NCBI RefSeq assembly: GCF_016907925.1
Contig: NZ_JAFBCZ010000003.1
Span: forward strand, 1 to 64,000
DNA: 64,000 nt
Direction: 5' to 3'
From: Herpetosiphon giganteus
Lineage (GTDB): Bacteria > Chloroflexota > Chloroflexia > Chloroflexales > Herpetosiphonaceae
Shown here: positions 4,238 to 32,890 of the stretch, in pieces
Layout: every line of letters starts with the position of its first letter
Position numbering within the stretch: the stretch's first letter is position 1
Program-made: the position numbers and the translations under genes
Notes under the pieces: model-generated
What the model was told of the DNA's origin: nothing
What the model saw: the letters and a program-made list of their open reading frames with translations, nothing else
The model's database searches: none

Positions 4238-5252
4238 GTTGCTGGGCATCAAATGTTAGATCGAGCGTTTGGCCTTGGCTCAATTGATAGCTGCTTGGGA
4301 GATCAAGCTGGAGCAATCCATGCTGATAGCGCCAAGCGATTCGTTGATAACTGCCACGGAAGCTCTGCTCGACCACAATGCCCTGAAAACTTTGGTTAGC
4401 CGTTTGGGCGATTTGGGCTGCTTCAGGCCGAATCAACAGATAAGCGGCATTGGTTTGCGAGCTTTGAATTTGGAATGGGCCTAAATTGGTTTCTACTGCT
4501 TGCAATTCAGGGCTGAGGCTGGTTTGCTGCTCAATTGGCAACAAATTGGTCAAGCTCAGAAAACGGGCAACAAAGGCGGTTTTGGGTTGCTGATAGATCG
4601 CTTGGGGCGTGGCAAGTTGGATGATCTGACCTGCATTCATTACCGCCAAGCGATCAGCAACCACAAAGGCCTCATTCTGATCATGGGTCACGTAGATCGC
4701 CGTAACTTCTGCTGCCTTGATAATCTGGCGCAATTCCTCGGTTAAGCGTTCGCGCAAGGTTCGATCCAACGATCCCAGTGGTTCATCGAGCATCAATAAT
4801 TGCGGGCGGGGCGCTAACGAGCGCGCCAAGGCAACCCGCTGGCGCTCGCCACCAGATAATTCCTGCACTGACCGCTGTTGATAGCCCACTAAGCCTACTA
4901 GTTCCAGCATTTCGGCCAGCCGCTGTTGGCGCTGGGCTTTGGCCATGCCTTCCATCCGCAAGCCAAATTCAATATTCTCGCCAACATTGCGATGGGGAAA
5001 GAGCGCCCAATCTTGAAACATCAGGCCAAAATTGCGCCGATGAATCGGAATGGGATTGAGCGGCTGACCATGCAACAACAACTGGCCTTGATCCGCAGAT
5101 TCAAGGCCAGCAATAATCCGTAAGAGGGTTGATTTACCACAACCACTGGGGCCAAGCAAGGCCAGAATTTCACCCCGATTGAGCGTTAGGTCAATATCAC
5201 GTAAGACAAGTGTTTGTTCAAATTGCTTACGAATGCCTTGCATATGCAACAT
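4212..5252 (-). CDS. ABC transporter ATP-binding protein with TOBE-like C-terminus
   Basis: The 346-residue protein (start chosen at MLHMQGIRK, because upstream in-frame codons overlap the preceding gene) is an importer-type ATPase. It has Walker A GPSGCGKST near residue 35, a Q-loop in FQDWALFPH, signature LSGGERQRVALARS near residue 132, Walker B LLMLDEPLGSLD and the H-loop in YVTHDQNEAF. The last about 100 residues resemble the TOBE regulatory part found in Fe3+, thiamine, sulfate and polyamine importers. No permease or binding protein is adjacent. It starts 7 bases after the stop of the DUF11 surface protein at 5260-6492, so the two probably share a transcript. The transported substrate is unknown. 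Confidence 0.85.
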   Translation of the reverse strand: MLHMQGIRKQFEQTLVLRDIDLTLNRGEILALLGPSGCGKSTLLRIIAGLESADQGQLLLHGQPLNPIPIHRRNFGLMFQDWALFPHRNVGENIEFGLRMEGMAKAQRQQRLAEMLELVGLVGYQQRSVQELSGGERQRVALARSLAPRPQLLMLDEPLGSLDRTLRERLTEELRQIIKAAEVTAIYVTHDQNEAFVVADRLAVMNAGQIIQLATPQAIYQQPKTAFVARFLSLTNLLPIEQQTSLSPELQAVETNLGPFQIQSSQTNAAYLLIRPEAAQIAQTANQSFQGIVVEQSFRGSYQRIAWRYQHGLLQLDLPSSYQLSQGQTLDLTFDAQQLSLVQSDH

Positions 5253-5259
5253 AGTTTGT

Positions 5260-6492
5260 TTATCCACGACTGCGTTGAGTAAGGCCAATGCCGAGCAGCA
5301 GTATAGCAAGAATCGCCGCACCAAGCCACCACGTGTTTTGCGAATTTGAGCCAGTGCTGGTATCGGGCAAGACTGCGGGAATAACCGTTGGCGTGGCGGT
5401 GCTGCCGCTACCTTGTTCTGGGGTAAGCGTGGCAATTGCCTCAATCGTGGCGGTGCTGCTAATTGCAATCGTGGGAGTTGTAATTATCACTTCGGTGGCG
5501 CTGACCACACTGGTCGCCGTTGCTTGATTAATTGCGGTTGCCGCTGGGGTTGGGCGCGGCGTGCGGGTTGGCGTTGCGGTAGCAGGCCCAGCAATAATCC
5601 GAATTGGCACATCGTCGGCAGCAGGCGCAAGATTATTGCCAAAGCTATCGCCAGCACCCACGACTCGCGCGCTGTTGGTGGTTTGCTCGATGCCTTTGAG
5701 CGCCGTAAAGACTGTCGTGATTGAGATAAATTCGTTGGGTGGTAGGCGAACTGGGCGCGGCGGCGTAAGCAGATTGGCCCAGGTTAATTTGCCTGGCTCA
5801 ATCGTATCGGGCATTGGCTCCGAGGCGATAAATTGCAACGCAGTTGGATCAAACGTATCTTCCAACGGCAAACTCACCACATCCACGAGGCCAGCATTTT
5901 GCACGCGAATCGTGAAGGTGATACGTTGACCAGCTTGGGGCAACACGCCGGCATCGAGGGTTTTTTCGAGTGGCGTATTGCCGCCAACTGCTTCATTATC
6001 GTGCTCGGCCTCGCCATCGCCCACCAAATTGCCTAATGAATCGTAGGCATCGTGGGTTGCAGCGTGGTTAACCACCCGTGGCGAGGGGTGTTCAGCAGTA
6101 AAGCGCACCAAAATCACCACTTGCTCGCCTGGCGCGAGCGGCCCTGTGGTTGCCAGAATATTATCCCAATTGATCACGCCAGTGCTGGCGTTGTGGCTAT
6201 CTTCTGCTGGCGTAGCGTTGATATAGGCCAAAACCGAGCGATCGTAGGTATCGACGACTGGCAAGGTGATCACGGTGGTATGCCAGTTATTGGTGATGGT
6301 AATTGCAAAGGTCAGGGTTTCGCCAACCATTACCACATTGCTCGATTTGAGCAAGGTTTTTTCAACTCGCAAGCCATTGCTTTGGGCAGCAGCAGGCCGA
6401 ATTGAATGGCCAAAAAATAGAACTCCGACTACCAACAGAAAAAGTGCGGTCGTTATGGCCAACAATAATCCAAACATGCGCGAACGAAGCAT
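5260..6492 (-). CDS. Surface protein with DUF11-type repeats and LPDT-like C-terminal anchor
   Basis: This 410-residue exported protein has a signal peptide ending near AAAQ (residues 1-37). Two DUF11/conserved-repeat domains follow at about 40-165 and 170-290, each with the LTFAITITNN / ITFTIRVQNAG start and a DTYDRS or DTFDP segment. A Thr/Ala/Ile-rich linker spans about 295-370. The end is VLPDTSTG, polar residues, a hydrophobic segment WWLGAAILAILLLGIGL and a TQRSRG tail, the tripartite layout of a sortase signal or simply a C-terminal membrane anchor. The AAGGAG site just upstream supports the start at 6492. It precedes the ABC ATPase by 7 bases. Likely role is cell-surface structure or adhesion. 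Confidence 0.75.
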   Translation of the reverse strand: MLRSRMFGLLLAITTALFLLVVGVLFFGHSIRPAAAQSNGLRVEKTLLKSSNVVMVGETLTFAITITNNWHTTVITLPVVDTYDRSVLAYINATPAEDSHNASTGVINWDNILATTGPLAPGEQVVILVRFTAEHPSPRVVNHAATHDAYDSLGNLVGDGEAEHDNEAVGGNTPLEKTLDAGVLPQAGQRITFTIRVQNAGLVDVVSLPLEDTFDPTALQFIASEPMPDTIEPGKLTWANLLTPPRPVRLPPNEFISITTVFTALKGIEQTTNSARVVGAGDSFGNNLAPAADDVPIRIIAGPATATPTRTPRPTPAATAINQATATSVVSATEVIITTPTIAISSTATIEAIATLTPEQGSGSTATPTVIPAVLPDTSTGSNSQNTWWLGAAILAILLLGIGLTQRSRG

Positions 6493-30501: not shown

Positions 30502-31386
30502 ATGGTTGCGCTCGATCAATTACAACCGCTGACTGAACGGATTTTTTGGTTACCCGCCGATAGCCGCACCGATCGCCCAATGTTGGGCTTGGTGGTGGGC
30601 GATCGTGAGTGTTTATTAATTGATGCTGGCAATTCGCCCGCCCACGTTGGCTTATTACGCCAAGCGATTCAGGCCCACGGCTTGCCGCAACCAACCAGAC
30701 TCGCCATCACCCACTGGCATTGGGATCATGTGTTTGGCATGGCCACCCTCGACTTGCCAAGCTACGCCTCGCAGGAAACCGACCGCATTTTGCGCGTGTT
30801 GGCCACCCTCGATTGGAGCGATGCAGCCTTGGATCAACGGGTTGAGGCTGGCCTAGAAATCGCCTTTTGCCGCGATATGATCAAGGCCGAAATGCCCGAG
30901 CGCAGCCAGTTGCAGGTTGTGCCCGCAACCAGCACCATCGCCCAGCAATTAAGCCTTGATTTAGGTAATTGTGCTGCCGAATTAATCGTTGTTGGTGGCG
31001 ATCATGCCCACGATTCAATGATTGTGTTTGTTCCAAGCCAATCAGTGGTCTTTTTGGGCGATTGCATCTACGACGACCTCTATCATGGAGCAAGACGCTT
31101 AACCAGCAGCCAACTTTTCCCTTTGTTGGAGCGTTTATTGGCCTTGCCAGCCGAATATTATTGTGCAAGCCACCATGGCCAGCCGCTAACTCGGGCTGAA
31201 TTTGAGGCCGAAGCCCAGCTTTTACGCCAAATTGGCACAATTGTGATGCAGTTTGGGGCGAATCCTGAGGCAATTTTGGCCCAAATGAGCCAACAATTCA
31301 ATGGCCTATTAACCGACGACCACCATGCAATTATGGCGGCCTTTTTGGCAGGCTTGGCCCTGCCCGAGGTTGCGTCGATTTACTGA
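30502..31386 (+). CDS. MBL-fold metallo-hydrolase
   Basis: The 294-residue protein belongs to the metallo-beta-lactamase fold. The zinc-site motif THWHWDHVFGM lies at about residues 71-81, LIDAGNSPAHVGLLRQ precedes it, a VVGGDHAHDSMIVFVP segment with the third His lies near 165, SVVFLGDCIYDDLY carries the bridging Asp near 190, and CASHHGQPLTRAEF carries the last His near 223. These hydrolases act on thioesters, lactones, beta-lactams or phosphodiesters, and the substrate here is unknown. The HWHWDH form replaces the usual HxHxDH. GGAG lies 14 bases upstream of the ATG. Confidence 0.85.
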   Translation: MVALDQLQPLTERIFWLPADSRTDRPMLGLVVGDRECLLIDAGNSPAHVGLLRQAIQAHGLPQPTRLAITHWHWDHVFGMATLDLPSYASQETDRILRVLATLDWSDAALDQRVEAGLEIAFCRDMIKAEMPERSQLQVVPATSTIAQQLSLDLGNCAAELIVVGGDHAHDSMIVFVPSQSVVFLGDCIYDDLYHGARRLTSSQLFPLLERLLALPAEYYCASHHGQPLTRAEFEAEAQLLRQIGTIVMQFGANPEAILAQMSQQFNGLLTDDHHAIMAAFLAGLALPEVASIY

Positions 31387-31399
31387 AAACGGAGTACCT

Positions 31400-31582
31400 T
31401 CCCTCACCCCCAGCCCTTTCAAGGGTAGGTTTTAAAAAGCGTGGTGATTAAACGTCCCCTCACCCCCCAGCCCCCTCTCCCACGAAAACGCGGGCGAGGG
31501 GGAGCAGACGTTTTTACCAACATATTGCGGCAAAACCATCAGATTGAGCCCGTCGGACGGGAGAGGGGTTGGGGTGAGGGGA
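31400..31582. repeat. CCCCTCACCCC hairpin element E3 with half-copy
   Basis: A full element (31455-31582) has arms CCCCTCACCCCCCAGCCCCC and GAGAGGGGTTGGGGTGAGGG and an inner segment TTTTTACCAACATATTGCGG plus CAAAACCA that is shared with E4 and E5. A half copy CCCTCACCCCCAGCCCTTTC with AAGGGTAGGTTTT precedes it. It ends next to the stop of the small membrane gene. Confidence 0.8.
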
Positions 31583-31759
31583 TCATGATTGTTCAGATTT
31601 AACCTCATGGACATCGTTGAGCGAATAATCCAATTGATCGCTATGCGGTGGCTCTTTGGCTTTTTGAACCACGATGCTAGCCCGTTGCCACAATTTTGAA
31701 ATTGCTTTGGCCAAGCCCACCAAGCCTAGCCCAGCGACAATCGCGATAATAATTGGCAT
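31583..31759 (-). CDS. 58-residue single-pass membrane protein, paralogue 1
   Basis: A 58-codon gene too short for a usual gene call starts at ATG 31759, with GGAGG 6-10 bases upstream. The N-terminal hydrophobic segment PIIIAIVAGLGLVGLAKAI (residues 2-20) precedes SKLWQRASIVVQKAKEPPHS and DQLDYSLNDVHEVKSEQS. The C-terminal tail closely matches that of the neighbouring 58-residue protein at 31828-32004 (IVVQKAxExPHxDQxxYS...EVKxE). The function is unknown, but the matching lengths and tails argue for a duplicated, real pair. Confidence 0.6.
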   Translation of the reverse strand: MPIIIAIVAGLGLVGLAKAISKLWQRASIVVQKAKEPPHSDQLDYSLNDVHEVKSEQS

Positions 31760-31787
31760 TGCGCACCCTCCAGCCTACAATTAAATA

Positions 31788-31821
31788 AACAGCGTACTGA
31801 AAAAAACTCCAGTACGCTGTT
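31788..31821 (-). terminator. Hairpin between the two small membrane-protein genes
   Basis: A perfect 12-bp stem AACAGCGTACTG / CAGTACGCTGTT with a 10-base A-rich loop lies between the two paralogues. On the minus strand TTTATTTAATT follows, a modest U-rich tail. It probably ends the upstream gene (31828-32004) or stabilises its message. Confidence 0.6.
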
Positions 31822-31827
31822 GCAAAT

Positions 31828-32004
31828 TTATTGGTCTTCGGCCTTCACTTCGCGGCCTTGATCCATCGAATAATTGCCCTGATCGATGTGGGGTGCTTCG
31901 CCAGCTTTTTGCACAATCACCCCAATTTGGAGCAAGAAAACAATTAAGCCACTAATCGTAATCAAACCCAAAATAACGAAACAGCCAATCCAAAACAGTG
32001 ACAT
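31828..32004 (-). CDS. 58-residue single-pass membrane protein, paralogue 2
   Basis: A 58-residue protein starts at ATG 32004, with GGAGG 7 bases upstream. A TTG two codons earlier is in frame but lies too close to that ribosome site. It has a hydrophobic segment (FWIGCFVILGLITISGLIVF and a few more residues) and the polar tail VIVQKAGEAPHIDQGNYS then MDQGREVKAEDQ. Its tail is homologous to that of the downstream paralogue while the membrane segments differ. It is oriented away from the promoter at 32094, so the two regions may be controlled separately. The function is unknown. Confidence 0.6.
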   Translation of the reverse strand: MSLFWIGCFVILGLITISGLIVFLLQIGVIVQKAGEAPHIDQGNYSMDQGREVKAEDQ

Positions 32005-32093
32005 ACACAATCCTCCTATAGTATTCCGGTCAATTCGTGGTCTAAGCGGCAGAACTCAGCCACGCCCTAGCCCGCCAATCCGACCAATAGTGC

Positions 32094-32122
32094 TTGACGA
32101 GCGATCCGAGCGGGTGTAGAAT
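32094..32122 (+). promoter_or_regulatory. Sigma-70-like promoter upstream of the GNAT-gdhA leader
   Basis: TTGACG at 32094-32099 and TAGAAT at 32117-32122 are separated by 17 bases. A transcript would start near 32129, run into the terminator-like hairpin at 32174-32197, and continue to the GNAT gene. This is among the closest matches to the consensus promoter in the window. Confidence 0.65.
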
Positions 32123-32173
32123 GCGCCTAGCTAACGTGCCGGATCAACGTTGATTGTGGTACGCTCCAATCAT

Positions 32174-32197
32174 CCGTGCAGGTTGCACGGTTTTTTT
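32174..32197 (+). terminator. Leader terminator hairpin upstream of the GNAT gene
   Basis: A 7-bp stem CCGTGCA / TGCACGG with a GGT loop is followed directly by seven T's. It lies about 45 bases after the predicted start site and 15 bases before the ATG of the acetyltransferase. It may be an attenuator or the end of a small RNA of about 65-70 bases. A perfect 12-base palindrome ATCAACGTTGAT precedes it at 32142-32153. Confidence 0.6.
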
Positions 32198-32212
32198 GTT
32201 TGGAAAATATCA

Positions 32213-32890
32213 ATGATTGTACCATCACCGCAAATCCGTGCAACGGTGCCTTTCCAAATAGGCGACTTGGCTTTGACGATTCGTCCGGCCATGATGGATG
32301 ATCTTGGGCCAATGCTGCAATTGCAGGCGCTGGCATTTGCCGATAAATTTAGCTCGGCTTTTGGTAAGCGTGGAGTGCAACGCGGCGTTGCGGCCTTACA
32401 TCAATCGCATCAAATGCAAGGGCCAAGCAGCTTACAGGGAATGTATGTCATGTTAGCTGGCAGCGAAATTGTAGGCACAATTACGTTGCGCACAATCGAG
32501 ATGCGCCCAGACGATGTTGGCTTAGTTGAGCAAGCGTTTTTACGCGAGCTTGGCGCTTGGGGTGCGTTTCGCGCCGTGCATGCGCTTTCCCAAATTGACC
32601 ATCGGATTGGGCGGGATGAAGGTTTTATTAGCGACGTTGCGGTTGCTGAACGTTATCGCCGCCGAGGCATTGCCCAAGCCATGATGCAGCATAGCATGAC
32701 CATTGCGCGTGAGCTTGGCAAACGCAAACTCGGCTTATACGTCAGTGCCTCCAATCATAACGCGCGCGCTTTATACCGTAATTTGGGCTTTAGCGAGGGC
32801 GAGGTGCGCCGCTCATGGTGGAACGCCCTGTTTCTCGGTGAACGCCGCTGGATTTATATGTCGTATAATCTTAGAGAGACTTCCGCATAA
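32213..32890 (+). CDS. GNAT-family N-acetyltransferase
   Basis: The 225-residue protein is read from MIVPSPQIRATVPF; an earlier in-frame ATG at 32150 would place its start in the leader before the terminator hairpin. Motif A of the GNAT fold is clear: EGFISDVAVAERYRRRGIAQAMMQHSM (acetyl-CoA-binding RRRGIA), followed by motif B KLGLYVSASNHNARALYRNLGF. The substrate could be a protein amine, an antibiotic or a small molecule. It is followed by gdhA after about 50 bases, and no terminator lies between, so the two are probably co-transcribed. Confidence 0.85.
   Translation: MIVPSPQIRATVPFQIGDLALTIRPAMMDDLGPMLQLQALAFADKFSSAFGKRGVQRGVAALHQSHQMQGPSSLQGMYVMLAGSEIVGTITLRTIEMRPDDVGLVEQAFLRELGAWGAFRAVHALSQIDHRIGRDEGFISDVAVAERYRRRGIAQAMMQHSMTIARELGKRKLGLYVSASNHNARALYRNLGFSEGEVRRSWWNALFLGERRWIYMSYNLRETSA

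Follow-up and report, generated by a model that had tools for sequence, protein, structure and literature searches.

What do two very short genes, lying in tandem in the genome of Herpetosiphon giganteus, encode, and what could their products do for the cell? We analyzed the question in a window of 64,000 nucleotides (contig NZ_JAFBCZ010000003.1, positions 1 to 64,000), which is the whole stretch of DNA under study. The original prediction of two 58-residue genes, each starting at a GGAGG-supported ATG, was confirmed by the open reading frames, which lie on the minus strand. The two genes are referred to as A and B, and their features are listed in Table 1. A is first in transcription and B second, with 68 bases between them, and the spacing from the Shine-Dalgarno site to the ATG is 7 nt in both. 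The order A, hairpin, B is conserved in all six genomes of the genus Herpetosiphon that were searched. The stem of the intergenic hairpin is also conserved in 6/6 genomes and its loop is variable; this hairpin is a possible partial terminator or processing site. The block around the Shine-Dalgarno site of A is near-identical in the same six genomes.

Table 1. Positions of the features at the A/B locus within the window.
Feature	Position	Strand	Basis
Gene A, predicted 58-residue single-pass membrane protein and ancestral family member, tail VIVQKAGEAPHIDQGNYSMDQGREVKAE	31828..32004	-	ORF
Gene B, 58-residue paralogue of A confined to genomes of the genus Herpetosiphon	31583..31759	-	ORF
Shine-Dalgarno site AGGAGG of gene A	32012..32017	-	sequence; inside block ACCGGAATACTWTAGGAGGATTGTGTATG
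Shine-Dalgarno site GGAGG of gene B	31767..31771	-	sequence
A/B intergenic hairpin, stem ACAGCGTACTG...CAGTACGCTGT, followed by a T-rich stretch	31788..31821	-	sequence, genus comparison
GNAT-GDH leader	32094-32213; model R1 at 32131-32195	+	genus alignment, covariance model

A GC-rich inverted-repeat element (CCCCTCACCCC...GGGGTGAGGGG, positions 31453-31585) ends exactly at the stop codon of gene B. Four other genomes of the genus carry a hairpin after gene B in place of this element. Matches to its core motif number 78 across the genome, against none in a reversed control; the window copy has a different length and stands outside these 78 matches.

Translation of A and B is supported by codon-level selection in the six Herpetosiphon genomes. 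Pooled pS and pN were 0.407 and 0.044 for A, and 0.531 and 0.109 for B. Pairwise dN/dS ranged from 0.028 to 0.154 for A (15 pairs) and from 0.076 to 0.179 for B (14 pairs, the fifteenth having no finite dS), where the 15 genome pairs are mutually non-independent. Furthermore, the reading frame, the length (58 codons, once 59) and the Shine-Dalgarno sites of both genes are conserved across the six genomes. The pattern of substitution indicates that A and B are real proteins under purifying selection.

The two proteins are 46% identical over 46 residues (BLASTP, E 1e-11). The tail halves align with a score of 78 against a shuffled maximum of 34, so that none of 5000 shuffles reached the observed score, while the membrane halves, with a score of 13, only equal the shuffled mean (13.0), and 2468 of 5000 shuffles did as well or better. 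The combination of a shared tail with a divergent membrane segment, which had been proposed from the letters of the window, is therefore real and not due to chance. A has the features by which the family is recognized, i.e., an N-terminal helix with A34, D41, Y45 and Q49-G50. B retains A34, D41 and Y45, together with the tail half K-A-x-E-P-P-x-x-D-x-x-x-Y-S, and lacks Q49, G50 and R51 of the tail in 6/6 Herpetosiphon genomes. Both proteins had also been predicted to span the membrane once. The 19-residue hydropathy maximum is 2.71 for A and 2.29 for B, and an AlphaFold2 (AF2) model of A, computed from 15 sequences, has a helix over residues 2-35, which together identify A as a predicted single-pass membrane protein. 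The prediction is less secure for B: only 17 residues precede its first charge, compared with 32 in A, and its purely hydrophobic stretch is short because charged residues occur from position 18 on, so that membrane crossing by B is uncertain. In a 23-row tree the B sequences form one group on a long branch with a support of 100/100; this group is placed with the Herpetosiphonaceae sequences with a weak support of 57/83. The tree fits an undated duplication that gave rise to B within the Herpetosiphonaceae lineage.

A two-row profile found matches in 9/9 Herpetosiphonaceae genomes. The pair of A and B was present in all six genomes of the genus, and the three other genera of the family had a single copy and no pair. 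A profile of 27 rows detected A in 46 of 82 Chloroflexales genomes, with E-values of about 4e-15 to 7e-30. These homologues with the same tail, on whose existence the original prediction hinged, are spread over four families: f1 (Herpetosiphonaceae, 9/9 genomes), f2 (24/41; it includes Chloroflexus and Oscillochloris, and we take it to be Chloroflexaceae), f3 (4/6) and f4 (9/26; presumably Roseiflexaceae or Roseiflexus). The copy number was one in each matching genome of the order, save the six with A and B. A is not universal in the Chloroflexales, since 36 of the 82 genomes, many of them near-complete, do not have it. Beyond the order there was one convincing match in 158 genomes of the class (G087, E 8.7e-9) and one in 400 genomes of the phylum (G320, E 2.2e-9, a 56-residue ORF). 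Two further hits, in G498 (E 0.0061, within a 346-residue frame) and G086 (E 0.005, with an internal stop), were left out as members. The boundary of the family, as drawn by these profiles, is the Chloroflexales with rare relatives outside. Inheritance of A appears to be mostly vertical, with a single copy in one conserved chromosomal place per genome.

Conservation and charge were counted over a family alignment of 27 rows. The mean entropy is 1.38 bits at positions 27-58 versus 2.12 bits at positions 1-26. Y45, Q49 and G50 are invariant in 27/27 rows and A34 and D41 are found in 26/27; R51 occurs in 23/27 rows, V53 in 25/27, and position 52 is E or D in every row. The helix contains a G19 column conserved in 21/27 rows and, in members from Chloroflexaceae, a common GxGIFWFL pattern. 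The column blocks 1-4 and 5-25 each hold a single charged residue over all 27 rows, and columns 26-36 hold 47 K/R with 23 E. Applied to this charge pattern, the positive-inside rule would place the tail in the cytosol and suggests that A is oriented N-out, C-in. In the AF2 model the helix is followed by a loose coil (residues 36-48) and a short helix over QGREVKAE (49-56); the mean pLDDT is 80.8, with low values of 57-60 over the last tail residues. A profile made from the tail only, run against the 82 genomes of the order, retrieved all 46 A genes and all 6 B genes; its other matches were three fragments 12-16 residues long (E 0.06-0.1), and it found the tail on no other Chloroflexales protein. 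As A and B were the only genes recovered, the tail does not serve as a tag in wide use.

The profile also hit a motif reminiscent of the tail, ANYALEQGREV (cf. YSLDQGREV in A), in G236 inside a 364-residue ORF assigned to DprA by eye (locus L089, positions 829-1923). DprA as a carrier of the tail was rejected, and NYALEQGREV was judged to be probably a chance resemblance.

The original prediction also suggested a shared partner of the tails and proposed a test for co-occurrence with a partner gene. A gene of this kind was found in part of the order. Gene C encodes a second small hydrophobic protein of about 54-150 residues and lies directly 3' of A, in the same orientation, in 30 of the 33 Chloroflexaceae and f4 genomes with A, a count made with a 15-row model of C in which 11 rows were drawn from loci that it then scored. 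With a 6-row model, which is more independent and misses some f4 copies, C adjoins A in most of the same genomes. The three genomes outside the 30 of 33 have a weak match (G027), a contig end (G039) and a locus with no C (G041). The gap between A and C is -4 to 209 nt and mostly below 55. The genes beyond A and C differ between Chloroflexaceae and f4; the A-C link persists across two families while the wider context changes. However, C was found in 0/9 Herpetosiphonaceae genomes, and it was next to A in none of the four f3 loci examined, from which it follows that A works without C. Co-occurrence with a partner gene holds for two families and fails in the family of the window. A shared partner of the tails is plausible, but the synteny analysis found no gene that adjoins A in all four families.

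Several neighbors of A in other genomes look like nuclease-type genes. In G001 (locus L043, about 5171-5866) the stop codon of A and the start codon of a YacP-like NYN-domain gene overlap (TAATG); Pfam recognized this gene (PF05991, 43.3 bits). In the f4 loci L051, L054, L055 and L056, A and C are followed by a uracil-DNA glycosylase-like gene (by eye) and a gene for an unnamed 191-residue membrane protein; most of these loci also have an RNase J-like gene (by eye) on the same strand downstream of A and C. A gene assigned by eye to RNase Y is located near A in G051, on the opposite strand. A membrane anchor for RNA decay was considered and dropped to the status of a lead, since direct adjacency to a nuclease-type gene on the same strand was seen in G001 only.

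In the Herpetosiphonaceae genera g1, g3 and g4, A is divergent from a GNAT gene and a glutamate dehydrogenase (GDH) gene, the window copies of which were identified by Pfam. The DNA between A and the GNAT gene is near-invariant over about 165 bases in six species. Its plus strand shows a promoter-like TTGACG-17-TAGAAT, a stem and a hairpin that resembles a terminator, carries seven T and stops about 24 nt short of the GNAT ATG. A three-sequence covariance model of this leader found it once each in 8 of the 9 Herpetosiphonaceae genomes and gave no convincing match among the other genomes of the 158 in the class; two further matches there had E-values of 0.005-0.01, and one of these lies within or next to a WD40-protein gene (by eye). 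A T-box or a known riboswitch was rejected: Rfam gave no match at the gathering threshold anywhere in the window, and a search of 31380-32500 gave none within the leader even at E≤5. Covariation was not significant (one pair changed on both sides; 135/500 shuffles scored as high) and is too scarce to prove the fold. The leader is a candidate attenuator or riboswitch.

What could A do? The most likely reading, which we hold tentatively, is that A is a membrane-anchored cytosolic docking tail. We favor it because conservation peaks in the presumably cytosolic part and because the paralogue with the changed helix keeps half of the motif. Residues 2-35 would make up a single membrane-spanning helix whose N-terminus lies outside, followed by the docking tail in the final ~25 residues (KAxEPPxxDxxxYSLDQGREVxxE). 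This tail may tether a partner, cytosolic or peripheral, to the membrane, by analogy with what has been proposed for Prli42 and the stressosome. In Chloroflexaceae and f4, A probably works together with C as one unit. C is gone from Herpetosiphon, where the tandem duplicate B stands beside A. B probably binds the partner of A in a changed way, or else modulates A, since it keeps the K-A-x-E-P-P...Y-S half and has lost Q-G-R. Docking by A must be dispensable or replaceable, given that A is missing from 36 of the 82 genomes. The conserved GxGIFWFL in the Chloroflexaceae helix would equally fit a membrane partner of A. A bolder version, which we regard as rather unlikely, is that A and C form an undescribed Chloroflexales membrane scaffold that recruits a core cytosolic machine via YSLDQGREV. 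Herpetosiphon would then have lost C and duplicated A to give B, which, minus Q-G-R, would serve as a second, regulatory docking site.

Ranked second, behind the docking tail, is the possibility that A serves as an accessory subunit buried in a larger complex of integral membrane proteins, with the helix as its main interface and the tail as a cytosolic cap, in the manner of CydX. The size and the single helix of A resemble those of known small subunits, the operon-like link with the small hydrophobic C would fit, and the G-x-G-I-F-W-F-L pattern and G19 could mark a helix interface. However, conservation across the family is lower in the helix than in the tail, and the helices of A and B are alike only at chance level. 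Furthermore, no cytochrome, respiratory or transport complex genes were recognized beside A in the loci read, and a search of PDB chains with the family profile gave a best E of only 2.5. We consider this subunit role possible and less likely than docking.

The genes upstream of A raise a further explanation. In 12 of 40 loci, from nine genera, a methyltransferase-like ORF lies 5' of A in the same orientation, and the one such ORF that was scanned passes the Pfam methyltransferase cut-offs. A and C could thus serve this adjoining SAM-dependent enzyme, as an anchor or as a substrate, and A in Herpetosiphon would be a remnant or be used by another enzyme. The enzyme is absent, however, from eight of the nine Herpetosiphonaceae genomes, among them all six Herpetosiphon genomes; the ninth has it on a different contig from A. 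Roseiflexus-type loci have A and C and no adjoining methyltransferase. The purifying selection on A in Herpetosiphon also argues against a remnant. Although genus g15 links the enzyme to C, we judge this explanation improbable.

In g15, four of five genomes (loci L117, L118, L119 and L122) have a methyltransferase-like gene followed directly by C, and A is missing. These loci indicate that C can persist without A.

The original prediction had suggested an antitoxin-like or quality-control role. The small size, the single helix and the tandem genes are what one might expect of a small toxin-antitoxin or membrane quality-control module. No toxin or antitoxin protein gene was recognized next to A in 40 loci, in which selected neighbors were searched with Pfam, and neither protein has a library match at a curated cut-off in Pfam, NCBIfam or PHROGs. 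Together with one fixed locus per genome, mostly vertical inheritance and a long conserved, presumably cytosolic tail, these results make such a module very improbable. The antitoxin-like role found no support; for quality control taken separately, the results point in neither direction. That the ORFs are untranslated and owe their conservation to an RNA or regulatory element is hardly credible: the near-invariant leader of the GNAT gene does point to non-coding constraint nearby, but most substitutions in A and B are synonymous, frame and Shine-Dalgarno sites are conserved, and the protein profile reaches E-values of about 4e-15 to 7e-30 across the order.

Returning to the docking tail, A and B belong to a family of small Chloroflexales membrane proteins with a tail that is conserved order-wide and is predicted to be intracellular. 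The family now has a profile, defined limits (the Chloroflexales and a few outliers), C as a partner gene, and a short set of invariant residues open to mutation at the bench. In a phylum that has received little study, small membrane proteins with conserved docking tails offer a practical route to the cytosolic machine recruited by such tails. Should the partner prove to be ordinary, the gain in annotation will be modest.

The family is unnamed in the libraries searched here. A and B had no match at the curated cut-off in Pfam, NCBIfam or PHROGs. The nearest Pfam entry was DUF2749 (PF10907), which 6 of 27 family members matched at E≤1, with a best score of 23.4 bits over the helix part; none of the 27 reached the curated cut-off of 25.5 bits, and A and B from the window gave no match at E≤10. 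These matches end at residue 43-48 of 59-63, which leaves most of the conserved tail uncovered. Two of 12 members matched phrog_8550 (best E 0.0012; P0001, E 0.0032), a family without an annotated function; most members of the A family, including A, had no match to it. A search of the open-licence PMC literature found no paper on small membrane proteins of Herpetosiphon, and none of the papers listed by a wider search of the same collection contained the word Chloroflexi.

Two known systems bear comparison with A. CydX-type small subunits have a single helix and a few dozen residues and are encoded in operons; A differs from them in that its conservation peaks in the tail. The other system is Prli42 of Listeria, a Firmicutes protein to which A is likened by its proposed role and not by sequence. 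Prli42 is a membrane miniprotein proposed to tether the stressosome, and its deletion had only small effects (PMC9840623). Like Prli42, A would be a small, conserved, single-pass protein that holds a cytosolic complex at the membrane.
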